The notes below the pieces were generated by a model. The model did not search any database. It was not told the origin of the DNA and was given only the letters and a program-made list of their open reading frames with translations. Both the position numbers and the translations under genes were made by a program. Below are positions 7,182 through 13,139 of a DNA stretch of 64,000 nt, piece by piece (within the stretch, counting starts at the first letter, position 1; every line of letters begins with the position of its first letter). Source of the stretch: Caloramator sp. E03 (GTDB taxonomy: Bacteria; Bacillota; Clostridia; Clostridiales; Caloramatoraceae); the NCBI RefSeq assembly GCF_006016075.1, contig NZ_CP040093.1, forward strand, positions 682,001 through 746,000, read 5' to 3'.

Positions 7182-7817
7182 TTATTTATTTTTTCTTATA
7201 CTTAATATTATTTCTCTTATTTTTTTAGCATTTTCAGCAATTTCTTCTTTTGTTCCTTTTGTCAAAAGTCCTCCAAAACCCACCACATCAACCCCATTTT
7301 TAAGCCATTCCTCTAAATTATCAAGATTAACTCCTCCAGAGGCAAGTATTGGCATATTAGGAATTGGTGTTTTTATAATTGATACTAAGGAAGGACCATA
7401 AAAATTTGAAATAGGGAATGCCTTAATAAAAGAAGCTCCAACCTCTAACGCCTCAATCATCTCAGTAATGGTAGTACATCCAGGAGCATAAGGAATGAGG
7501 TAACGATTGCATACTTTTGCAACATCTTTACTAAAGTTTGGAGCAATAATAAATTTTGCACCTGATAAAATTGCAAGTCTTGCTGTTTCTGAATCTAAAA
7601 CCGTTCCAGCTCCTACTAATAACTTATCTCCAAATTTATCACTAAGAGCTTTAATCACATCTCCTGCATTAGGTAAAGTATAACTTATTTCAAGTACATC
7701 TATTCCTCCAGCCAAACACCCTTCTGCTATTTCTATTCCTCTTTCTATTGTTTCTGTCCTCACAATTGCCATAGCACCTGTTGATTCAATTCTGTTAATT
7801 ATATCAGCTTTAAACAT
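7182..7817 (-). CDS. KDPG/KHG family aldolase (Eda-like)
   Basis: A 211-residue TIM-barrel aldolase. The catalytic Schiff-base Lys is in FIKAFPISN (about 130), the general Glu in DVLEISYTLP (about 43), and the phosphate-binding segment in LASGGVNLDNL. The family cleaves 2-keto-3-deoxy-6-phosphogluconate to pyruvate and glyceraldehyde 3-phosphate, or 4-hydroxy-2-oxoglutarate to pyruvate and glyoxylate. It sits 38 nt downstream of a broken PRD/PTS regulator, so it may once have belonged to a PTS operon. It could also supply the last step for the uronate genes at 37-45 kb, which lack a local KDPG aldolase. The active-site wording differs slightly from E. coli Eda, so the exact substrate is uncertain. 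Confidence 0.82.
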   Translation of the reverse strand: MFKADIINRIESTGAMAIVRTETIERGIEIAEGCLAGGIDVLEISYTLPNAGDVIKALSDKFGDKLLVGAGTVLDSETARLAILSGAKFIIAPNFSKDVAKVCNRYLIPYAPGCTTITEMIEALEVGASFIKAFPISNFYGPSLVSIIKTPIPNMPILASGGVNLDNLEEWLKNGVDVVGFGGLLTKGTKEEIAENAKKIREIILSIRKNK

Positions 7818-7855
7818 CTATAAATTCCTCCTGTTTATTAATGAACTAATATTGA

Positions 7856-10148: not shown

Positions 10149-11207
10149 TTAATTACACTTTTCAATCCAAAGTTTTGCTATACCATCATTAGGATTTAAA
10201 CGTAAACAAAGCTCAAAAGCCTTTTTGGCTTCCTCTAAATTATCAAGATAGTAATAACAAACACCTATATTACATATTATATCAGGATTATCAGGTTTTA
10301 TTTTTAAAGAGTTTTTAAAGAATTCAATAGCTTTGTCAAATCTATTTATACATGCATAATTCAAACCAATTTCGTTATATATCTCCGGCAACTCGCCATT
10401 CTTTAAAAGTTCAAATAATATTGAAAGAGCACTATCATAATCCCCAGACTGTCTTAGAGCCATAGCAAAGTAATATTTACAATTTAAATTTTGAGGAAAT
10501 AGTTGTAAATATCTTTCTAAAATACTTATTACTTCACTACCTTCACCTTTTTTAATTTTGTCTACTGCTTTATCATATTCTTCTGTTAAATCTATCTTCT
10601 CTAAATAGTCTAATGCCTTTAACTTATACTTATCATCATTTAAAGCCTTTGAAAAATACATTTTAGACATTGTCATATCCTTGTCAAGATAATATTCTCC
10701 TAATAAAAAAAACGGTGGGGAATAATCAGGGTAATTTTTTGCTAACTCTTTTAACTCATATACTATCTCATCTTCTAAAAACTTATAACCTGTTTTATCA
10801 TGCATACTCATCATAATATAAATCATATTCATAATATACTCTTTTTTAGGATAAATTTCACAAAGGGCTTTTGTAAGAATTAATGATTCTTTTGTATTAT
10901 TAATCTTTTTATTTTCTATTTCCATTATTAAATAACTTTTTGCTTGAGGGACATTTCTCATACAGTTAATATAGTCATTGTTATATTTAAAAGCTGGATC
11001 ACAAGCAATTACATAAGCCATTCCTTTAATAAAATAACTAATAGGTATGTTTTCTTTCCCTTTACTTGCAAATGATATCATATCTTTAGATATTATAGGA
11101 TATACACCTTTTTTTAGAATAGCTTTATCTTTAACCTTTATATCCTTATCAATCTCTAAAAACAAAATATTATCTAGTTCCTTCTTTAAATAACTTAGAA
11201 AATCCAT
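10149..11207 (-). CDS. Tetratricopeptide repeat protein
   Basis: A 352-residue soluble protein without a signal peptide. The C-terminal third has clear TPR units, for example YFAMALRQSGDYDSALSIL, EIGLNYACINRFDKAIEFFK and NIGVCYYYLDNLEEAKKAFE, followed by a degenerate cap. The first 200 residues are helical and not recognised. I chose the ATG at 11207, which has GGAGGTGAAACTA just upstream; the GTG at 11216 lies within that RBS. It follows the dynamin-like GTPase gene in the same direction, after a terminator, so it may be co-expressed by read-through and act as a partner protein. No catalytic motif is visible. Confidence 0.82.
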   Translation of the reverse strand: MDFLSYLKKELDNILFLEIDKDIKVKDKAILKKGVYPIISKDMISFASKGKENIPISYFIKGMAYVIACDPAFKYNNDYINCMRNVPQAKSYLIMEIENKKINNTKESLILTKALCEIYPKKEYIMNMIYIMMSMHDKTGYKFLEDEIVYELKELAKNYPDYSPPFFLLGEYYLDKDMTMSKMYFSKALNDDKYKLKALDYLEKIDLTEEYDKAVDKIKKGEGSEVISILERYLQLFPQNLNCKYYFAMALRQSGDYDSALSILFELLKNGELPEIYNEIGLNYACINRFDKAIEFFKNSLKIKPDNPDIICNIGVCYYYLDNLEEAKKAFELCLRLNPNDGIAKLWIEKCN

Positions 11208-11215
11208 TAGTTTCA

Positions 11216-11249
11216 CCTCCTAAACATTATAACATTTTACACTAGGAGG
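11216..11249 (-). promoter_or_regulatory. Inverted repeat that could mask the TPR gene RBS
   Basis: On the minus strand CCTCCTA (11243-11249) can pair with TAGGAGG (11216-11222), which is the Shine-Dalgarno sequence of the TPR gene. The loop is 20 nt. The loop also contains TGTTATAAT, which would put a transcription start inside the RBS if used, so I favour an RNA hairpin. Confidence 0.4.
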
Positions 11250-11258
11250 CGCCACATT

Positions 11259-11289
11259 AAAAAATCCCAAGCATTAAACTTAGCTTGGG
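11259..11289 (-). terminator. Terminator overlapping the end of the GTPase gene
   Basis: The stem CCCAAGC / GCTTGGG (11283-11289 and 11266-11272) has the stop codon in its loop and is followed by ATTTTTT on the minus strand. It partly separates the GTPase from the TPR gene. Confidence 0.82.
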
Positions 11290-12968
11290 TAACAGTTTTT
11301 AACAATATCCTCTATATTTTCACACAAACTATTTAATTTTTTTATTTTGTTCTCAACCTCCATATTCTTATCCTCTCTATTTAATATAACTTTATTTAAA
11401 GTGTTTTGAATATCCCTTTGCAGATTAGATGAGTCCTCTGTAAATGTTAACTTAAAGGAACGAAGACTTTCTTGAATTTTATATCTATAATTGTATAGCA
11501 TATTGTTTTTATTTCGCTCAATAGCTCTTTTCATATTATCTAGTAACTTTTGATATATAATCCTATTTGAATACGATTTTGGCATAATATAAACAAAATC
11601 ATTAATATTTATAAAAAATGAACCTGAAAAGCTATCAACTTCAACATAAAAATCCTCTTTATTAGAGAGAATATAATCATTTTTTTCATAGCTGTACTCT
11701 ACATTGAAAATATCATATACTGTTTTTGATATATAAGATTTTATATCATTGATGTCATTATTAAGCATTTCTATTATATTCTCATACCCAATTTTTAATT
11801 TCTCTAATCCTTCTTCATTCATACTCTCAAGCTTTTCAACCAAGCTACTATCAATAATGTACTTCAACTTTTCTTCTAATTTTCTTGGTCTTAAAAAGTT
11901 ATTCTTTTCATACTCATCTTTTAATATTTTTTCCATATCACTTACCATATTATCTACCTTTATCTTAAAGTATTCCTCAATATTTTGAATAAGGTTGTCT
12001 GTATTTTTTTCAGCATGATAAAAAATATCTTCAGTTATCCTATCTAATTCTTTTAGCTTATCATATAGCTCTTTTATTTTTTCCTCTAAACTATCAATAG
12101 GCATTTTTAATGCACTGATATAAAGCTGTATCTTTGATAAAACAGTTTTTAATATATCAGTTGTTTTTATCTTTATTGAATTTACAATAATTTCATCTTT
12201 AGAATGATTTACATCTCTTTTAATAATTGATATTAATTTTTCAACCCCTATTAACTTCTGAGCACTAATAGGGAAAAAATCAATATAATTAATGTTCATT
12301 ATTTCACAAATAACATTTTCACAATATTTTAAATATGTTTCAAGTTCACTGCTATTTATTACATCTATCTTATTAATTACAAAATAAAACTTTGATGCAT
12401 ACTTTTTTGCCGCACTCAAAAATTCTCTTTCTATTTCATTTATTGGACTATCAACAGAGAGCATAAAAATTATGGCATCGCTGTTTTTTATAAAAGAATA
12501 AGCAGCATCAGTATTATGTTTATGAATCGATCCAACCCCAGGAGTATCTACAAGTATTATTCCTTCCTTTAATATACTGCTTGGATAGAATATTTTAACA
12601 TATTCCACCTCTTTTTGATTGTTAGGATTTTCCTGTTCACTAATATAAATAGAAAGATTATCTAAAGGAACCTCTTTTTCTTCTCCATTTTTAAAAATAA
12701 CTTTTGCACAAGAAGTAGGGCTATACTGAAGTCTTGTAACAACAGATGTTATAGGAATAATTGCAACAGGTAGTATATCATCTCCTAAAACCTTATTTAT
12801 AAAGGTTGTCTTGCCACGTTTAAACTGACCCACAACAGATATTATAATCTCTTTATTCTTTAACTTTTCCCTTAACTTTAAAAGCTTTTCAAGTTGATCT
12901 TTACAAACATCAGATTCTTCTAATAATTTAATAGAATCATCTAATATATCATATATTGAAATACCCAC
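11280..12968 (-). CDS. Dynamin-like large GTPase
   Basis: A 562-residue protein with an N-terminal GTPase domain: G1 GQFKRGKTT at residues 47-55, G2 Thr in PITSVVTRL, G3 DTPGVGS near 140 and G4 NKID near 196. Long helical, coiled-coil-rich stretches follow (about 290-420 and 500-560), as in bacterial dynamin-like proteins that bind and remodel membranes. No transmembrane helix is obvious. It starts at GTG with AAGGAAGG upstream. Its leader carries a fluoride riboswitch and a sigma-A promoter, and only 47 nt separate the riboswitch terminator from the start, so it is the direct target of that switch. A TPR protein follows. A fluoride link for this family is not something I know to be established. 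Confidence 0.88.
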   Translation of the reverse strand: MGISIYDILDDSIKLLEESDVCKDQLEKLLKLREKLKNKEIIISVVGQFKRGKTTFINKVLGDDILPVAIIPITSVVTRLQYSPTSCAKVIFKNGEEKEVPLDNLSIYISEQENPNNQKEVEYVKIFYPSSILKEGIILVDTPGVGSIHKHNTDAAYSFIKNSDAIIFMLSVDSPINEIEREFLSAAKKYASKFYFVINKIDVINSSELETYLKYCENVICEIMNINYIDFFPISAQKLIGVEKLISIIKRDVNHSKDEIIVNSIKIKTTDILKTVLSKIQLYISALKMPIDSLEEKIKELYDKLKELDRITEDIFYHAEKNTDNLIQNIEEYFKIKVDNMVSDMEKILKDEYEKNNFLRPRKLEEKLKYIIDSSLVEKLESMNEEGLEKLKIGYENIIEMLNNDINDIKSYISKTVYDIFNVEYSYEKNDYILSNKEDFYVEVDSFSGSFFININDFVYIMPKSYSNRIIYQKLLDNMKRAIERNKNNMLYNYRYKIQESLRSFKLTFTEDSSNLQRDIQNTLNKVILNREDKNMEVENKIKKLNSLCENIEDIVKNCYPS

Positions 12969-13015
12969 AACAACCTTCCTTTCTATATATTAGTGAAAAT
13001 ATAATCCTTTTATAA

Positions 13016-13103
13016 ATAAAAAAAGCTAATGAATTCTACTAAAGTAGAAGTCATCAGCTATAAAGCATTTAGGAATATTCTCCAAGGAGGAACTTCATCT
13101 CCC
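13016..13103 (-). promoter_or_regulatory. Fluoride (crcB-type) riboswitch with terminator
   Basis: The minus-strand RNA starts GGGAGAUGAAGUUCCUCC (13103-13086), matching the first half of the fluoride aptamer. After a small extra hairpin come UAAAUGCU, a UUAU loop and AGCUGAUGACUUCUAC (13059-13044). The pseudoknot pairs GAAG with CUUC; this covaries with the GGAG/CUCC and GAGG/CCUC pairs that I recall from Bacillus cereus and Thermotoga petrophila. The same 3' segment is the left arm of a 16-bp terminator stem (right arm 13039-13024) ending in T7, so fluoride binding should prevent termination. A sigma-A promoter lies just upstream. The U after UAAA, where a C is more usual, and the extra hairpin are deviations. 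Confidence 0.82.
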
Positions 13104-13110
13104 ATGTAAA

Positions 13111-13139
13111 ATTATAACAAAAATATTATAAAATATCAA
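13111..13139 (-). promoter_or_regulatory. Sigma-A promoter of the riboswitch-GTPase transcript
   Basis: On the minus strand TTGATA (13134-13139), a 17-nt spacer and TATAAT (13111-13116). The predicted start at about 13104 coincides with the first base of the fluoride aptamer. Confidence 0.8.

Follow-up and report, generated by a model that had tools for sequence, protein, structure and literature searches.

The RNA element described here belongs to a known class, the fluoride riboswitches (crcB RNA motif), which carry an A40/U48 linchpin (PMC8752731) and in which the terminator overlaps the 3' end of the aptamer (PMC2864571, PMC8752731). The published lists consulted here of genes under these riboswitches name crcB, CLC, mutS, formate hydrogen lyase, Na+/H+ antiporters, pyrophosphatase and enolase, and include no dynamin (PMC2864571, PMC8752731). 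Genes under fluoride riboswitches that have no part in transport hint at the true targets of fluoride damage. Among bacterial dynamins, DynA performs membrane surveillance under stress, and IniA moves to membrane lesions (PMC8844932). Here, we analyzed a window (the whole stretch of 64,000 nucleotides from Caloramator sp. E03) in which a fluoride riboswitch stands directly before the gene for a dynamin-like GTPase. In the literature on fluoride riboswitches or crcB together with dynamin or GTPase, we met no description of a fluoride riboswitch that controls a dynamin; the gene tables of the 2012 discovery paper lay outside the scope of this search, and an unnoticed line in a supplement is possible. 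The word dynamin is also absent from a 2024 review of fluoride resistance. The riboswitch itself is well established as a class; what would be a novel variation is a whole clade of dynamins devoted to fluoride.

The aptamer lies at 13038..13111 on the minus strand, where cmscan matched the complete Rfam model RF01734 (positions 1-64) with a score of 47.7 bits (E=3.9e-10), above the gathering threshold of 34 bits. This match is the sole Rfam RNA recovered by the covariance-model scan of the 64-kb window. A sequence-only reading of the locus had proposed a fluoride aptamer with a covarying pseudoknot and had suggested checking it with Rfam and Infernal, and both features hold: the fluoride-site letters are unaltered in the cmscan alignment (GAUG, and UGAUGACUUCUAC with the A40/U48 linchpin), and the riboswitches of the organism's own genome show covariation at two pseudoknot pairs, 9-46 and 12-43, with A-U in the window aptamer and G-C in others, and U-A in the window aptamer and C-G in L076. 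A consensus scan located a sigma-70 type promoter, TTGATA-17-TATAAT with an extended TG and 11/12 matches, at 13111..13139 on the same strand; this putative promoter is a sequence match only. The promoter that had been placed at the first base of the aptamer is present, and its -10 box shares one base with the Rfam model, the last of the box and the first of the model; the transcript itself therefore probably starts ~7 nt inside the model, at the GGGAGAUG of the P1 stem.

The expression platform is an intrinsic terminator at 13018..13058 on the minus strand, the 5' arm of which is the conserved 3' segment of the aptamer. Its hairpin (GCTGATGACTTCTAC-TTTA-GTAGAATTCATTAGC, 13058-13025) is followed by T7 and folds at -15.8 kcal/mol, compared with a mean of -3.2 for shuffled sequences (1/1000 shuffles equally low), as expected from the earlier suggestion of a terminator sharing the aptamer's 3' arm. 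RNA folding was used to find it; a simple terminator scan was negative at the riboswitch because of its strict pairing rules. The 3' part of the aptamer, GCUGAUGACUUCUAC, can pair alternatively with GUAGAAUUCAUUAGC to give the terminator hairpin, which takes up 13058-13044 of the aptamer and makes the two structures mutually exclusive; an ON switch is thus predicted from the anatomy of the leader and the known riboswitch class. Without fluoride, the 3' segment of the aptamer would be drawn into the terminator hairpin, ending transcription short of the GTPase gene; Mg2+-fluoride would lock the pseudoknot, blocking the hairpin and allowing the GTPase to be made. With its full-length aptamer, its pseudoknot and linchpin letters, and a terminator overlapping the aptamer's 3' end, the leader resembles transcriptional ON switches for fluoride such as that of Bacillus cereus. 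It differs from them in the gene that it controls, since dynamin is missing from the published gene lists consulted.

Downstream, a ribosome-binding site read from the sequence (AGGAAGG, 12974..12980, minus strand) precedes a GTG start that lies 69 nt past the aptamer model and 49 nt past the T-run. The gene (11280..12968, minus strand) encodes a protein of 562 aa with G1 (GQFKRGKT), G3 (DTPG), and G4 (NKID) motifs and a Pfam Dynamin_N match of 108 bits (cut-off 27; E=5.8e-31), which agrees with the earlier identification of the first gene after the switch as a dynamin-like GTPase. The three motifs are kept across 51 clade members, and the clade protein should therefore be an active GTPase. 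A second terminator (CCCAAGC-N10-GCTTGGG plus a T-run, 11259..11289, minus strand; fold -11.8 kcal/mol) overlaps the GTPase stop codon and closes the unit, which consequently comprises one gene. The TPR gene at 10149-11216 was considered as part of the unit and rejected, because the terminator at the GTPase stop precedes it.

Two concordant AlphaFold2 runs (13 and 51 sequences, pLDDT 84) modeled a GTPase head, long helices (242-287, 291-356, and 361-421), a small tip (422-463), and long returning helices (464-533 and 535-559), so that a long helical trunk, helices 242-533, follows the GTPase domain. The best solved structures identified by Foldseek were IniA (7.6e-20) and BDLP of Nostoc punctiforme (2j69; 1.1e-18), followed by bacterial dynamin pairs and mitofusins. 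IniA, the isoniazid-inducible dynamin-like protein of mycobacteria, is likewise a stress-linked, single-chain GTPase with a helical trunk, but identity is only 14-15%, and IniA is linked to cell-envelope drugs and is without a known fluoride riboswitch. BDLP is also related by phmmer over the GTPase domain (3.8e-20); it differs in its length of 695 aa, in the absence of a known fluoride link, and in its tip, which is shorter in the window protein. TM-scores to both structures are only ~0.4, which means an architecture in common and a conformation that is not the same. BDLP has a clear paddle, and no strong transmembrane paddle was seen in the AlphaFold2 model of the window protein. When 15-mers of the C-terminal half are ranked by hydrophobicity, the top one falls in many members at the tip, modeled at low confidence (loop 435-455), as expected if the tip were a membrane-touching paddle. 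DynA of Bacillus subtilis, a membrane-stress dynamin, is a third relative, and its NCBIfam model was matched by all 51 members scanned. DynA is long and two-headed, however (a 1187-position model), whereas the window protein has a single head and scores 70.5 bits against the DynA equivalog NF052648, far below the 1600-bit cut-off, and so is not a DynA equivalog. The window protein reached the cut-off of no NCBIfam family other than the general small-GTPase domain model, and its family therefore appears unnamed.

Fluoride control of this gene could in principle be particular to one organism, as in the sequence-only reading, which placed the GTPase in the fluoride response of this organism. With protein similarity as the sole criterion, we searched the order, class, and phylum for relatives of the GTPase, which gave 61 clade members across Bacillota, and located RF01734 in the same genomes independently of GTPase position. 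A riboswitch on the same strand with the GTPase no more than 6 kb downstream was found for 49/61 members (chance expectation 0.14), and one directly upstream (<=300 nt) for 29/61 (chance expectation 0.007); these chance figures are simple uniform-placement estimates that ignore the kinship of genomes. The count includes some aptamers that fall short of the Rfam gathering threshold (for example, G247, 26.8; G744, 30.7; and G688, 31.8 bits), and these three leaders also carry a terminator. As a control, 18 remote dynamin-family proteins from the same order had no fluoride aptamer in their flanks (~1.5 kb a side), and in a tree made by a quick method, with some long branches, they fall apart from the 61-row clade with 99% support, the riboswitch label being strongly clustered. 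The proposed survey of genomes for riboswitches upstream of dynamin genes thus shows a recurring pairing. The suggested role in the fluoride response is strongly supported, and the scope first given to it was too narrow: judged from sequence, fluoride control of the GTPase is a trait of the whole clade, spread over many Bacillota families, and not a single-organism oddity. We regard it as nearly certain that the clade is under fluoride control, and have equally little doubt that the window GTPase would be regulated by fluoride.

The remaining 12/61 members have no same-strand upstream RF01734 match within 6 kb. Contig ends cut off two of them; the genomes of G483 and of four shorter proteins yielded no RF01734 match; and five are exceptions in genomes with RF01734. 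Shorter relatives of 420-447 aa (L108, L109, L110, and L111), whose genomes gave no fluoride riboswitch match, are missing part of the trunk and the tip. Two linked copies are broken, both in fragmented assemblies (G002, frameshifted; G589, joined to another gene). Single-protein scans detected no relative of the GTPase in viral contigs and, in genome contigs, one 35% relative without a riboswitch, both scans being too narrow; plasmid tblastn returned remote dynamins only.

Association across genomes might also arise as a by-product of mobile fluoride-resistance islands in which the GTPase is a hitch-hiker with another job, such as phage defense of the LeoA/LeoBC (Eleos) kind. Gene order is highly variable, as such islands would have it, and PADLOC gave weak matches to LeoA (5e-13) and LeoBC. 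These matches cover mainly the GTPase domain in the window protein, however, and the window locus has no Leo partner; moreover, 29 direct placements behind a dedicated riboswitch, mostly with a proper terminator, need selection for fluoride control of the GTPase itself, and we consider hitch-hiking highly improbable. The Eleos identity was rejected (partial LeoA match of 46.9 bits, not full-length, no partners at the window locus), and the PADLOC defense assignment was dropped as too weak. Among the direct GTPase leaders, 26/29 contain the aptamer-sharing terminator, so that ON control of the GTPase gene is the rule. Three related direct leaders (L168, L170, and L174) have no simple aptamer-sharing terminator; instead they show repeated CTCCTACC/GGTAGGAG blocks and two hairpins and possibly use a different expression platform.

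The dedicated fluoride control of the GTPase can be placed in the context of its own genome, a single contig of 2.98 Mb with five fluoride riboswitches, the GTPase leader included. Reading downstream of each riboswitch, with Pfam searches of those genes or their relatives, gave five units: two CrcB proteins with DUF190; two MutS-like ATPases (domain V, plus weak domain III in one); MoxR-DUF58 and a third gene; an MFS transporter; and the dynamin-like GTPase. The GTPase is, then, one member of a predicted multi-unit fluoride regulon. Both mutS and enolase are known neighbors of the fluoride riboswitch motif (PMC2864571, PMC8752731). The MoxR AAA ATPase-DUF58-third gene operon directly follows a fluoride riboswitch in 3/3 genomes of the genus (L077:2012-5440, plus strand, own genome from 611011; also L079 and L081), and in L146 the MoxR-DUF58 pair follows the GTPase. 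The riboswitch upstream of the MFS transporter is at L073:6271-6334 (minus strand) in the own genome, and MFS genes adjoin the GTPase in G002, G939, G647, G891, G886, G790, and G814.

What the GTPase does under fluoride is less constrained than its regulation. The clade occurs repeatedly in what would be fluoride regulons, either as a single gene or sharing an operon with CrcB, MutS-like ATPases, enolase, Na+/H+ exchanger, Usp, and MFS genes, and it looks like a dedicated part of bacterial fluoride defense. On the likeliest reading, the protein is a cytoplasmic dynamin whose helical trunk carries a hydrophobic tip for binding the membrane from the inside; it would oligomerize with GTP and stabilize or repair membrane hurt by incoming HF, acidification, and a lost proton-motive force. 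Given the structural models and the analogy to known dynamins, we hold membrane protection to be an even bet, and somewhat favor the explanation as a whole, that is, a fluoride ON-riboswitch, a single-gene dynamin unit, and membrane protection. A dynamin-like clade tied to one ion would point to the membrane, or to something else on which dynamins act, as a place where fluoride does major harm. Fluoride would, in addition, be a simple and specific inducer for bacterial dynamins, the functions of which are mostly unclear, and would render function testable.

The sequence-only reading offered membrane remodeling or repair and, alongside it, replacement of a GTPase function that metal-fluoride mimics of phosphate would have poisoned. 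Over-produced enolase or pyrophosphatase is thought to offset fluoride poisoning, and enolase, a fluoride-sensitive enzyme, adjoins the GTPase in G306, G589, G764, and G877, where target over-production may occur. Against extending this to the GTPase, as a protein that replaces or out-titrates a poisoned counterpart, the window protein is the only true dynamin in its genome (other weak Dynamin_N matches are P-loop fragments of smaller proteins), and replacement of a poisoned dynamin is consequently unlikely. Further, a close homolog is missing from a 97%-complete congener, and no housekeeping family is matched at cut-off, the clade not being a duplicate of a housekeeping GTPase, which leaves no evident candidate for replacement. 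Replacement is thus improbable as stated, and membrane remodeling or repair is the better supported of the two roles, by the trunk, the hydrophobic tip, and the IniA and BDLP folds, from which we infer it. A further possibility concerns fluoride itself: in mitofusin 1, GDP-AlF4- or BeF3- dimerizes GTPase heads in the transition state in vitro (PMC7407159). By analogy, fluoride might act twice, turning the gene on through the riboswitch and locking the GTPase heads in a dimeric transition state as a metal-fluoride complex (GDP-AlF4-, BeF3-, or MgF3-), which would make the dynamin a fluoride-activated membrane coat; this we regard as a long shot.

The link between riboswitch and GTPase is kept while gene order varies (ARRANGEMENTS). 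With RS denoting the riboswitch, arrangements include RS-GTPase alone, RS-MutS-MutS-GTPase (G011 and G593), RS-CrcB-CrcB-DUF190-GTPase (G355), RS-GTPase-enolase (G306), RS-enolase-GTPase (G589), RS-Na+/H+ exchanger-Usp-GTPase (G764), RS-DUF6062-GTPase, and back-to-back riboswitches, one leading into CrcB and the other into the GTPase. Where the operon also holds MutS-like ATPases or enolase, the GTPase may act elsewhere than on the membrane. It could, for instance, regulate or help to assemble the MutS-like pair or the DUF6062 protein of shared operons, a reading suggested by the two RS-MutS-MutS-GTPase operons, by adjacent MutS pairs at several other loci, and by DUF6062 genes adjoining the GTPase in G979, G845, G795, and G790. 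Yet the GTPase is alone, or without MutS or DUF6062, at many loci, and in the own genome MutS and the GTPase each have their own riboswitch, at loci far from one another, and we consider such partners doubtful as its main business and continue to prefer a membrane role.

The DUF6062 gene lies between riboswitch and GTPase at L147:5054-5806, L151:4988-5638, L149:6467-7102, L175:8599-9459, and L178:3984-4718, confirmed by Pfam for the first four and by sequence resemblance only for L178; its product is a candidate second unstudied member of the fluoride regulon. In L105, back-to-back fluoride riboswitches (7564-7634, minus strand, and 7776-7835, plus strand) stand ~140 nt apart, one serving the GTPase and the other a CrcB pair; the same layout occurs in G622, G623, G624, and G612, and with a MutS pair in G610. 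Finally, G790 (L175 and L176) has ten RF01734 matches and two GTPase copies, each near a MutS-like pair.
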